Below are positions 215 to 38,178 of a stretch of DNA of 49,179 nt, piece after piece. The notes under the pieces were generated by a model that saw only the letters and a list, made by a program, of their open reading frames with translations, was not told the origin of the DNA and made no database searches. Source of the stretch: Candidatus Brocadia sapporoensis (lineage in GTDB: Bacteria; Planctomycetota; Brocadiia; Brocadiales; Brocadiaceae); the NCBI RefSeq assembly GCF_001753675.2, contig NZ_MJUW02000098.1, positions 1 through 49,179 on the forward strand, given 5' to 3'. Each line of letters begins with the position of its first letter. Position 1 is the first letter of the stretch. Both the position numbers and the translations under genes were made by a program.

Positions 215-1381
215 ATGACAAAAATCTATATGGATAATATCTCGGGCACACCCATCCACCCGAAAGTTATAGAGGCTATGACGCCATTTTTAAAGGATGG
301 GTTTGGCAATCCCTCGAATCTCCATCAATTCGGAAGAGCTACGAGTGAAGCCATCCAGGCAGCACGCGGGCAGGTCGCCCATCTTATTAACGCGAAACCA
401 AATGAAATCATATTCACGTCAAGTGGCACAGAGGCCAATAATCTTGCCCTGAAAGGCATGCTGGCAGCGCACAAAAAGAAGGGAAACCATGTTATAACCA
501 CGCAAATCGAACATTTTTCCGTGCTTAATCCCTTAAAGTCATTGGAAAAATCAGGATACGAAGTTACTTATTTACCTGTTGATAAATATGGAATGGTGAA
601 TCCTGACGATGTTAAAAAGGCAATTAAAGCCACCACAACAATGGTGTCCATTATGTATGCCAATGGAGAGATTGGGACGATCGAGCCAATAAAAGAGATT
701 GTAACCATTACAAAAGAGAGGGGAGTTCTGTTTCACACAGACGCAGTTGCTGCAACAGGAAATATCCCTATTGACGTCAAAGATGTACCGGTCGATGCTC
801 TGAGCATGTCTGCCAACCAATTCAGCGGGCCCTCAGGGATTGGGGCGTTATATGTCCGCGAAGGCGTGAGGGTACTTCCTTCCATGGAGGGCGGGGTACA
901 GGAGGGTGGCCGCAGGGCAGGAACAGAAAATGTCATCGGCATTGTGGGTATGGGGAAAGCGGCAGAACTGGCAAAATCTGAAATGGCCTCGCGCATGGAT
1001 AAGGTTCAGGGCTTGAGAAATCAGCTAAGAGACGGCATATTAAAAAATATTCATCATGTATATATCAATGGGCATCCGACACATCGTCTGCCAGGAAATC
1101 TCAGTATGTGTCTGGAATATATTGAAGGCGAATCGGTTTTATTATTTCTTGATATGCAGGGTATTGCAATTTCCAGCGGTTCTGCATGTACCTCGCGGTC
1201 GCTTAAGGCATCTCACGTCATCATGGCCACAGGTGTTGATGCGGCGCTTGCTCAGGGGACTGTGCTTTTCAGCTTGGGCATTAACAATTCCGAGGAGGAT
1301 GTCAAATCTATTCTGGAAAAATTACCGCCTACCGTAGAACGGTTACGGCAGATGTCGCCTTTATATAACCAGAAAAAATAA
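215..1381 (+). CDS. NifS/IscS-like class V aminotransferase-fold protein lacking the PLP lysine
   Basis: A 388-residue protein that aligns along its whole length with NifS/IscS cysteine desulfurases, which take sulfur from cysteine using PLP and an active-site Cys. Retained features are the DNISGTP N-terminus, SSGTEANN, IEH (PLP-stacking His), HTDA (PLP Asp) and the mobile Cys loop SSGSACTS. The family's PLP-binding lysine, normally in SGHK or SAHK followed by GPKG, is absent: this protein reads SANQFSGPSG, with Asn201-Gln202 at 815-820. The PLP-contacting Gln after HTDAV is Ala. The ATG at 215 is chosen because AGG stands 9 bases upstream; a TTG at 167 is an alternative. It stands ahead of an IscU-type scaffold and TusA. 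It may be a non-PLP sulfur carrier or a partner subunit, or it may bind PLP differently. The family is certain; activity is doubtful. Confidence 0.85.
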   Translation: MTKIYMDNISGTPIHPKVIEAMTPFLKDGFGNPSNLHQFGRATSEAIQAARGQVAHLINAKPNEIIFTSSGTEANNLALKGMLAAHKKKGNHVITTQIEHFSVLNPLKSLEKSGYEVTYLPVDKYGMVNPDDVKKAIKATTTMVSIMYANGEIGTIEPIKEIVTITKERGVLFHTDAVAATGNIPIDVKDVPVDALSMSANQFSGPSGIGALYVREGVRVLPSMEGGVQEGGRRAGTENVIGIVGMGKAAELAKSEMASRMDKVQGLRNQLRDGILKNIHHVYINGHPTHRLPGNLSMCLEYIEGESVLLFLDMQGIAISSGSACTSRSLKASHVIMATGVDAALAQGTVLFSLGINNSEEDVKSILEKLPPTVERLRQMSPLYNQKK

Positions 1382-1419: not shown

Positions 1420-1596
1420 AAAAAAAGGTATACATACGAGGACTATTTAAAAATATCTGATGACAAGTGGTATGAACTCATAAATGGAGAGCTGTTCATG
1501 GCACCACCTCCGGTTCCAAAATATCAATTAGTCTCATCAGAACTGTATGGTCGATTAGGAGATTTTGTTTTAAAAAAGGAAATGTTTTCAGAATAG
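1420..1596 (+). pseudogene. Remnant of a Uma2-family (DUF820) endonuclease
   Basis: Between the NifS-like gene and the IscU gene, a frame without a start codon (in-frame TAG at 1417-1419, TAG at 1594-1596) encodes YTYEDYLKISDDKWYELING followed by ELFMAPPPVPKYQLVSSELY. This matches, from recall, the N-terminal signature of Uma2 proteins (E/D-Y-L, YELIDGELxMxxxPxxxHQ). These are PD-(D/E)XK-fold nucleases often found in many copies in planctomycetes and cyanobacteria. Only the first ~55 residues remain and the catalytic core is missing, so this is a decayed fragment, not a working gene. Confidence 0.65.
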
Positions 1597-1605
1597 GAGT
1601 TATCT

Positions 1606-2034
1606 ATGCAATACAGCACAAAGGTTATGGATCATTTTGCTAATCCCCGGAATGTCGGGGAGTTCGCTGATGCCGATGGTGTAGGGGAGGTAGGAAATCC
1701 TGCCTGTGGCGACATCATGAGGATGTCCATCAAGGTCAAGGACAACGTCATTGTTGACGTAAAATTCAAAACCTTCGGGTGTGGTGCGGCCATTGCCACG
1801 AGCAGCATTTCTACGGAAATGATCAAAGGAAAGACCCTGGATGAGGCACTACAGCTTACTAACAAGGCTGTTGCAGAGGCATTGGATGGATTGCCTCCAG
1901 CCAAGATGCACTGTTCCGTGCTCGCCGAGGAGGCCATCGAGGCGGCCATTGATGACTATCTTAAGAAAACCACAGGCAAGGGGCTTGAAAAAAAGAAGCA
2001 TCATGCGCACGACGAACATCACGAACACGGATAG
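1606..2034 (+). CDS. iscU: IscU/NifU-N type Fe-S cluster scaffold with His-rich tail
   Basis: A 142-residue U-type scaffold on which [2Fe-2S] clusters are assembled in the cytoplasm. The three cluster Cys residues are in their usual contexts: GNPACGD, FGCGAA and MHCSVLAEEAI. The conserved Asp after the first Cys and the His before the last Cys are present, and LPPAK resembles the LPPVK chaperone-binding motif. Unlike the second copy at 36125 it has no Bfd-like or NifU C-terminal domain. It ends instead in a Lys- and His-rich tail (KKKHHAHDEHHEHG) that could bind metal. AGGAG precedes the ATG by about 6 bases. It follows the NifS-like gene and precedes tusA, so it is likely part of one sulfur/Fe-S transfer operon. 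Confidence 0.9.
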   Translation: MQYSTKVMDHFANPRNVGEFADADGVGEVGNPACGDIMRMSIKVKDNVIVDVKFKTFGCGAAIATSSISTEMIKGKTLDEALQLTNKAVAEALDGLPPAKMHCSVLAEEAIEAAIDDYLKKTTGKGLEKKKHHAHDEHHEHG

Positions 2035-2206: not shown

Positions 2207-2437
2207 ATGAAGGCGGATGAAACCCTGGATTGTTATGGCCTCATGTGTCCTATGCCCATTTTTAAAACATCCGTTAAAATAAAGGATGTAGAAATAGGCA
2301 AGATCCTTGAAGTTGTTGCCACAGACGAGGGAATTAAAAAGGATATTGCCTCATGGTGCAACACCACAGGCAATGAACTTCTGGAAATATGCGAGGAGGA
2401 CGGGGAAATACACGTTTTCATCAGAAGATTAAAATAA
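2207..2437 (+). CDS. tusA: TusA/SirA-family sulfur carrier protein
   Basis: A 76-residue protein of normal TusA length. TusA proteins carry a persulfide on a single Cys and pass it from cysteine desulfurases to acceptors for tRNA thiolation, molybdenum cofactor or sulfur metabolism. The signature Cys-Pro-Met-Pro is present near residues 14-17 (GLMCPMP), followed by the usual beta-alpha-beta pattern (GKILEVVATDEG) and a C-terminal strand. It lies 172 bases after iscU on the same strand and ends 41 bases before the convergent mlaD. The pairing with a NifS-like protein and a scaffold suggests a dedicated sulfur relay. Confidence 0.88.
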   Translation: MKADETLDCYGLMCPMPIFKTSVKIKDVEIGKILEVVATDEGIKKDIASWCNTTGNELLEICEEDGEIHVFIRRLK

Positions 2438-36124: not shown

Positions 36125-36979
36125 GTGTGGGATTATTCTGAAAAAGTGAAGGATCATTTTTTTCATCCAAGAAATGTAGGCGAAATTGAAAATCCGGATG
36201 CCGTGGGTGAAGTGGGCAGTTTAGCTTGCGGAGATGCGCTAAAATTGATGCTAAAACTGGATACTTCAGGCCGCATTGTGGATGTAAAATTTAAAACGTT
36301 TGGATGTGGAAGTGCCATTGCCTCTGCGAGCGCCTTGACAGAGATAATTAAAGGAAAGACCTTGGATGAGGCAGGGAAAATTACGGACAACGACATCGCA
36401 AAATATCTTGATGGGTTGCCGGAGCAGAAAATGCATTGTTCTGTGATGGGCCGGGAGGCCCTGGAAGCAGCTATTGCAAGTTACCACGGATTAAAGATAG
36501 AAAAACCGGTTGATGAAGGTGTGATTGTCTGCAAATGTTTTGGAGTAACAGATAATAAGATCATGCATGAGGTGAGAGAGCATAAATTAACAACCATCGA
36601 GCAGGTAACAAATTACTGTAAGGCAGGTGGTGGCTGTGGCTCATGTCATCCGAAGATCCAGGCTATCATAAATGAGGTATGGCAGAAAGAAAAAGAGAAA
36701 GCAATGATTGAAATGGTTAGGAGTCCCGTTAAAAAGCTGACAAATATACAAAAGATGAAGTTAATACAGGAAACCATAGAAAGAGATATTCGGCCTACCC
36801 TTCAATCAGATGGAGGCGATGTTGAATTAATTGATATTGATGGAGACCGTGTTATGGTCTCATTTCGGGGAAGTTGTGCAGAATGTCCCAGTTCAAAAGT
36901 TACTTTAAAATCGACGGTGGAAGCGAAGTTAAGAGAGTTTGTGACAGATACGGTTATCGTTGAGGAGGTGGCTTCATGA
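36125..36979 (+). CDS. nifU: Full-length NifU Fe-S cluster assembly scaffold
   Basis: A 284-residue three-domain NifU. The U-type scaffold domain (about 1-125) carries Cys in LACGD, FGCGSA and MHCSV. The Bfd-like [2Fe-2S] domain (about 133-185) has CKC ... C ... CGSC. The NifU C-terminal domain (about 205-284) has CAEC (SCAECPSSKVTL). It assembles clusters from sulfur delivered by NifS. The start is GTG at 36125 with AAAGGAA upstream. Its stop overlaps the nifS start by 4 bases. It differs from the short scaffold at 1606. Confidence 0.95.
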   Translation: MWDYSEKVKDHFFHPRNVGEIENPDAVGEVGSLACGDALKLMLKLDTSGRIVDVKFKTFGCGSAIASASALTEIIKGKTLDEAGKITDNDIAKYLDGLPEQKMHCSVMGREALEAAIASYHGLKIEKPVDEGVIVCKCFGVTDNKIMHEVREHKLTTIEQVTNYCKAGGGCGSCHPKIQAIINEVWQKEKEKAMIEMVRSPVKKLTNIQKMKLIQETIERDIRPTLQSDGGDVELIDIDGDRVMVSFRGSCAECPSSKVTLKSTVEAKLREFVTDTVIVEEVAS

Positions 36980-38178
36980 AGGTTGTATACGCAGATAATA
37001 ATGCTACAACAAAGGTTGCTCCTGAGGTTGTAGAGGCTATGTTGCCGTATTTTACCGAGTATTATGGGAATCCTTCGAGTATGCACTCCTTTGGAGGCCA
37101 GGTAGCGAAAAAAATAGATGTTGCAAGACAGCAGGTGGCAGAGCTTGTTGGTGCAGACCCTGCGGAAGTGGTGTTTAGTAGTTGTGGTACGGAAAGCGAT
37201 AATGCAGCTATTTGGGGTATACTTCGGGCAAATCCGCGGAAAAGACATATCGTGACGACAAGGGTAGAGCACCCTGCAGTTTATAATTTGGGTAAATATT
37301 TGGTTCAGTGCGGTTATCATGTGACGGAATTGGGTGTAGATAGCAATGGGATGCTTAATTTGGATGAATTATCTGATGCAATACGTGAAGATACCGCGAT
37401 TGTGTCAATTATGTATGCAAATAATGAGACAGGAGTGATTTTTCCTATCGAGGAGATTGGTCAGATTGTAAAGGGTAAGGGTTCAATCCTCCATACGGAT
37501 GCGGTTCAAGCCGTAGGTAAAATACCACTGAATCTTTCAAAAAGTACGATAGACCTGTTAACCCTATCGGGCCATAAATTACACGCTCCAAAGGGGGTTG
37601 GCGCCCTCTTTGTTAGGAAGGGAATTACGTTTGCTCCTTTTATTATTGGGGGGCATCAGGAAAAGAATCGACGGGGAGGCACAGAAAATGTTCCTTCGAT
37701 TATTGGTCTTGGTAGGGCATGTGAATTGGCGAGGAATTATATAAATGAGGAATCGACCAAGATGAAACAATTAAGAGATAGGCTGGAAGAAGAGATTCTG
37801 AAAAAAGCACCGGATGCCAGGTTAAATGGACACAAAATGCAGCGTCTTCCGAATACGACGAACCTGAGTTTTGAATTTGTGGAGGGTGAGGCTATTTTAT
37901 TATTGCTGAACGAAAAAGGAATCTGTGCCTCGTCAGGTTCTGCCTGCACCTCTGGTTCGCTGGAACCATCACATGTGTTGAGAGCTATGGGTGTTCCCTT
38001 TACTGCAGTGCATGGTTCTGTAAGGCTTAGTTTAAGTCGATATAACACCATAGAAGATGTTCATTATATTATTGAACAACTTCCTCCAATTATCAGAAGG
38101 TTAAGGGAAATATCTCCTTACGGCAGCAGGGAAATGAAAATGAAGGAACAAGCCGCTAGGGTAGTGGCGGGGATGTAG
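36976..38178 (+). CDS. nifS: Cysteine desulfurase NifS
   Basis: A 400-residue PLP enzyme that converts cysteine to alanine and enzyme-bound persulfide. Unlike the paralogue at 215 it has every expected residue: HTDAVQAVGK, the PLP-binding Lys in LSGHKLHAPKGVGALFV, and the catalytic Cys loop SSGSACTSGSLEPSHVL. It overlaps nifU by 4 bases (ATGA), so the two are translationally coupled. It therefore serves as the intact reference copy in this window. Confidence 0.96.
   Translation: MKVVYADNNATTKVAPEVVEAMLPYFTEYYGNPSSMHSFGGQVAKKIDVARQQVAELVGADPAEVVFSSCGTESDNAAIWGILRANPRKRHIVTTRVEHPAVYNLGKYLVQCGYHVTELGVDSNGMLNLDELSDAIREDTAIVSIMYANNETGVIFPIEEIGQIVKGKGSILHTDAVQAVGKIPLNLSKSTIDLLTLSGHKLHAPKGVGALFVRKGITFAPFIIGGHQEKNRRGGTENVPSIIGLGRACELARNYINEESTKMKQLRDRLEEEILKKAPDARLNGHKMQRLPNTTNLSFEFVEGEAILLLLNEKGICASSGSACTSGSLEPSHVLRAMGVPFTAVHGSVRLSLSRYNTIEDVHYIIEQLPPIIRRLREISPYGSREMKMKEQAARVVAGM

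Follow-up and report, generated by a model that had tools for sequence, protein, structure and literature searches.

The lysine-less IscS locus of Candidatus Brocadia sapporoensis

The window, the whole 49,179-nucleotide stretch of Candidatus Brocadia sapporoensis DNA that was analysed, begins with an operon whose first gene encodes an IscS/NifS-like protein (hereafter the Lys-less IscS) and which also encodes an IscU scaffold and a TusA-family sulfur carrier (Table 1). A truncated Uma2-family remnant separates the first two, and intact Uma2 genes hold this position in other Brocadiaceae. Further along the window lies an active-type NifS.

Table 1. Genes of the window discussed here, with the diagnostic residues of the Lys-less IscS.
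Feature	Position	Strand	Basis
Lys-less IscS/NifS-like protein, 388 aa	215..1381	+	Intact ORF, profile match, predicted structure
Ala179 (in HTDAVAA), replaces PLP Gln	749..751	+	
SANQF (residues 199-203), Asn201 for His and Gln202 for PLP-binding Lys	809..823	+	
Cys325 in mobile loop SSGSACTS, invariant	1187..1189	+	
Leu351, replaces substrate-carboxylate Arg	1265..1267	+	Alignment
Truncated Uma2-family remnant	1423..1596	+	Pfam score 21.1, below cut-off of 27
IscU/NifU_N scaffold, 142 aa, three Cys and Asp of canonical IscU	1606..2034	+	Profile match, alignment
TusA-family sulfur carrier, 76 aa, CPMP motif	2207..2437	+	Profile match
Full-length NifU, partner of the active-type copy	36125..36979	+	Profile match
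Active-type NifS with SGHK, Gln and Arg	36976..38178	+	Profile match, alignment

The first-pass annotation had proposed a genuine, probably expressed protein without the PLP-binding lysine, and our analysis supports this. Gln202 (codon 818-820) occupies the lysine site, with Asn201-Gln202 standing where the second copy has SGHK, and HTDAVAA replaces the HTDAVQ of that copy, so that the glutamine which contacts PLP is now an alanine. The catalytic Cys loop, the PLP-stacking His100 and the PLP Asp176 are all present as described, together with Thr237. We also detected a further loss beyond those first reported, that of the substrate-carboxylate arginine, the site of which was assigned to position 351 by alignment and by its distance from the catalytic Cys, 26 residues in each case. 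In SspA, Arg340 binds the cysteine carboxylate, and IscS and DndA are said to share this residue (PMC7188994). The two copies in the window share 45% identity, the same fold and the Cys loop, whereas Lys, Gln and Arg are present only in the active-type NifS, whose partner is a full-length NifU.

The reading frame is intact, and the suggested ribosome binding site could be located (AGGA, 8 nt ahead of the ATG). The good promoter that had been proposed alongside it did not hold up: a promoter scan returned five sites against 5.2 expected from shuffles, no better than chance, and the site of this gene was not called. A perfect TATAAT lies upstream at 150-155, but the TTGTTG that goes with it is poor and the spacer between them is 19 nt. 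Every full-length close homologue in the genus, family and order lacks the lysine, and its shared loss in those of the family and order (at least 59% identity) rules out a sequencing error. A frameshift in one MAG (G008, L051), taken with the missing Lys, Gln and Arg, could also be read as decay of a gene in Brocadia only; however, almost all relatives have an unbroken frame, and members of the clade occur in many phyla. Decay is refuted by this conservation and by a dN/dS of 0.05-0.07 against four Brocadiaceae orthologues, similar to that of the active-type NifS (0.08), and is vanishingly improbable.

An AlphaFold model of the protein (pLDDT 92) matched IscS/NFS1 structures with Z-scores of 53-55 and superimposed on Archaeoglobus fulgidus IscS (4eb5/4hvk) with an rmsd of 1.2-1.4 Å, the human and E. 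coli enzymes being similar. The model therefore predicts an IscS fold, which alone is silent on activity, and the dimer and swinging Cys loop are probably retained as well. Against the NCBIfam NifS equivalog TIGR03402 the protein scored 520.2 bits, under the cut-off of 530.75, as did seven other Lys-less proteins including that of A. fulgidus, whereas the active-type copy scored 625.0. This gene is likely to be annotated as a cysteine desulfurase, but its residue content argues otherwise, and it is almost certainly not one: as judged from the residues present, the protein would have no means to form a PLP internal aldimine or to hold the cysteine carboxylate. Joint loss of Lys, Gln and Arg is what would be expected if cysteine binding were no longer needed. 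The protein may still bind PLP or PMP, given the invariant Asp176 and His100.

A bacterial clade lacking Lys, Gln and Arg

The first-pass annotation predicted that relatives would form a clade with conserved gene neighbours, and such a clade was found across many phyla, with IscU and TusA nearby. Our scan of named genomes detected Lys-less IscS proteins in Brocadiales, Chloroflexota (mostly Dehalococcoidia), Aminicenantes, Nitrospirota, Elusimicrobiota, Margulisiibacteriota, KSB1, Thermodesulfobacteriota and others. Among 56 Lys-less bacterial proteins the lysine site was most often Gln (n = 43), the rest having Pro, Ala, Thr, Met, Leu, Arg or Glu, and the position of Gln183 (E. coli numbering) was Ala in 50. 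None of the 56 had the substrate-carboxylate Arg, whereas Lys, Gln and Arg were all retained in each of 23 Lys-type proteins. When every fetched locus was counted, redundant loci among them, the Arg was present in 45/45 Lys-type and 0/151 Lys-less proteins.

Cys325, His100, Asp176 and Thr237 were invariant in the Lys-less group (56/56), and the last three of these residues would suit a PLP or PMP enzyme which uses another anchor, one of the roles first suggested for this protein, or which catalyses another reaction. However, according to the alignment the pocket motifs of the 56 proteins have gained no conserved Lys, and the Lys most enriched in this group, Lys331, sits just past the Cys loop. 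With the substrate Arg gone and Ser199 missing in 37/56, we consider an enzyme of this kind highly improbable.

The bacterial Lys-less proteins clustered in our tree, apart from one Lys-type row (PDB 9wep), and forcing them into one clade gave a better likelihood than the free search. A. fulgidus IscS fell with the Lys-type proteins in the free tree, though a clade of the bacterial Lys-less proteins plus A. fulgidus was also not rejected by the AU test. Its loss of the lysine may thus be independent of the bacterial loss, in which case any mechanism is transferred from the archaeal protein by analogy.

A second Lys-less subfamily was observed in the same order (L044-L048), with SHTFYGP, SQPFYGP or GHAFYGP at the lysine site. 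Some genomes (G053, G058) carry both Lys-less types.

Gene neighbourhood and other desulfurases

In the Brocadia operon IscU lies 228 bp downstream of the Lys-less gene; the first-pass annotation of this gene had overlooked both IscU and TusA. Neighbours were counted within 3 kb at loci flanked on each side by 1.5 kb or more (59 Lys-less, 15 Lys-type). IscU was found at 46 of the 59 Lys-less loci. TusA was likewise present at 46/59, versus 0/15 Lys-type loci (Fisher p 2e-8, a value which overstates independence as the loci share ancestry), while NifU accompanied six of the 15 Lys-type genes. A DsrE_2 gene joins 13 loci. The IscU proteins near Lys-less genes retain their Cys and Asp ligands, and almost every TusA encoded beside these genes still has its Cys.

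Gene order varies between groups, being Rrf2-TusA-IscS-IscU in Nitrospirota, IscS-IscU-DsrE_2-TusA or IscS-IscU-TusA in Dehalococcoidia, and Nfu-IscS-IscU-TusA in Aminicenantes; TusA is thus upstream in Nitrospirota and downstream in most other groups. This survival of the linkage through rearrangement argues for a joint function. Counting against a partnership with IscU, the two are not always neighbours: in Ca. Brocadia pituitae, Uma2, IscU and TusA stay together with the Lys-less gene about 218 kb away, and in Scalindua the Lys-less gene is apart from IscU, which was found elsewhere in those of these genomes that were searched. We conclude that the Lys-less IscS very probably acts with IscU. 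In Nitrospirota (L085, L100, L101 and others up to L131), the TusA-like proteins between the Rrf2 regulator and the Lys-less IscS were observed to carry CPMH rather than CPxP.

The active-type copy is the only other NifS-type desulfurase found in the B. sapporoensis genome, in which no SufB/D was found. The first-pass annotation had raised the possibility of a regulatory partner of the true NifS, and with an active-type NifU-NifS pair encoded some 36 kb away in the same genome, a regulatory pseudoenzyme might bind or compete with the active NifS or its NifU. However, the Lys-less protein has its own adjoining IscU, and two genomes elsewhere in the clade encode it as their only full-length desulfurase-like protein. 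One is a chromosome-level Dehalococcoidia MAG (L075, bin1158, a single 2.1-Mb record), where besides the Lys-less IscS we found only a 72-residue fragment, no other desulfurase-like match above 100 bits and no SufB/D, hence the Lys-less IscS and IscU are the only assembly pair found there. In the other (L077, a 1.1 Mb MAG) it is the sole desulfurase-like protein, with SufB/D present. As no other full-length desulfurase to regulate was found in either genome, regulation is unlikely as a general role.

A putative role in Fe-S cluster assembly

A desulfurase-dead IscS paired with IscU is already known from archaea, a precedent overlooked in the first-pass annotation. The IscS of A. fulgidus is reported to be devoid of desulfurase activity and to provide its Cys as a ligand of the [2Fe-2S] cluster on IscU (PMC7585200, citing the primary work). 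This protein (PDB 4eb5, 4eb7, 4hvk; D199K variant 4r5f) shares with the Brocadia protein the Gln to Ala, His to Asn and Arg to Leu changes, the absence of the PLP-binding Lys, the retained Cys loop, the IscU partner and the fold. The two differ in that the A. fulgidus protein is archaeal, about 45% identical, and has Asp at the lysine site in place of Gln. A second, probable example, Methanosarcina acetivorans IscS1, is reported without the essential Lys and is encoded beside IscU (IscU1); compared by description, its locus differs in having four reported neighbour genes of unknown function, none named TusA.

On balance, we favour a role for the Lys-less IscS as a desulfurase-dead partner of the adjacent IscU in Fe-S cluster assembly. 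It would bind the IscU encoded beside it, and by homology with the A. fulgidus IscS-IscU pair, Cys325 would swing into IscU to complete or hold a nascent [2Fe-2S] cluster; by analogy, we lean slightly towards this Cys-ligand step as the main role. Where the Lys-less protein is the only copy in a genome, Fe-S clusters must obtain their sulfur by another route. It could arrive as sulfide, which can supply IscU in an anaerobic E. coli iscS mutant (PMC13015791), or as persulfide on the TusA/DsrE proteins of the operon, and in Brocadia the separate active NifS possibly supplies it.

The linkage with TusA is left unexplained by a pure cluster-ligand role. A persulfide carrier, the remaining role raised in the first-pass annotation, is possible, and one form of it is a reverse relay in which TusA, with DsrE-type proteins at loci that have them, gives sulfane sulfur to Cys325 for transfer to IscU, the Lys-less IscS being a docking hub and not the sulfur source. 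The E. coli IscS-TusA and IscS-IscU complexes (3lvj, 3lvl) comprise the same three protein families as the Brocadia operon, and E. coli TusA Cys19 lies within 4 Å of IscS Cys328 (PMC11302665), the two proteins forming a complex of solved structure. The E. coli IscS is itself the sulfur source, however, which by its residue content the Lys-less protein could not be. The frequency of TusA beside Lys-less genes and its absence beside Lys-type genes, the DsrE_2 genes, the persistence of the linkage whether TusA is upstream or downstream, and the near-constant TusA Cys all point to such a relay. Against this, E. coli TusA and IscU are competitors for IscS (PMC11302665), TusA could instead be the recipient or serve another pathway, and three loci (L093, L102, L106) have IscU with no TusA nearby. 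We therefore regard the relay as a less probable alternative and favour the cluster-ligand/assembly role over it. The broader proposal of a reversed-flow module widespread in bacteria, in which TusA/DsrE load the desulfurase-dead IscS, and this in turn IscU, so that clusters are made with sulfane sulfur or sulfide in place of cysteine sulfur, is more tentative still. If true, cells, some of them without a conventional cysteine desulfurase, would make Fe-S clusters from these sources.

The pairing of an IscS-like and an IscU-like protein with the rest of the ISC operon absent also resembles MisS-MisU of the minimal iron-sulfur (MIS) system (Garcia et al. 2022). The MIS system differs, however, in that MisS is described as a cysteine desulfurase (PMC12442378), and the H. 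pylori protein (NifS/MisS) is enzymatically active and has PLP-cysteine structures. In the literature covered, with most subscription journals and the MIS-system paper outside it, we found no paper joining iscU, tusA, dsrE2 and a cysteine desulfurase, nor any account of a large clade in bacteria, of Arg loss as a third signature, of the operon with TusA/DsrE, or of genomes with no other full-length desulfurase. The bacterial breadth of Lys-less IscS and its TusA/DsrE linkage hence look new.

A look-alike of the desulfurase is thus kept under strong selection in an anammox bacterium and many other anaerobes, where it probably aids cluster assembly with another sulfur source. An old question, whether the clusters of anaerobes are made with sulfide rather than cysteine, can now be put to the test in bacteria, where there is a defined operon and where a single genome provides a natural set of active-type and dead paralogues. 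The three-residue signature (Lys, Gln, Arg) would also let annotation pipelines tell the two types apart.

Separately from these loci, a Lys-containing class-V aminotransferase/desulfurase domain was observed fused to a molybdopterin oxidoreductase in a protein of 1131 aa (L200:2763-6158; Pfam, with L200 the one locus scanned), and L200-like open frames of about 1,130-1,180 aa occur in several Brocadiales genomes. This fusion possibly supplies its own sulfur for the molybdenum cofactor.
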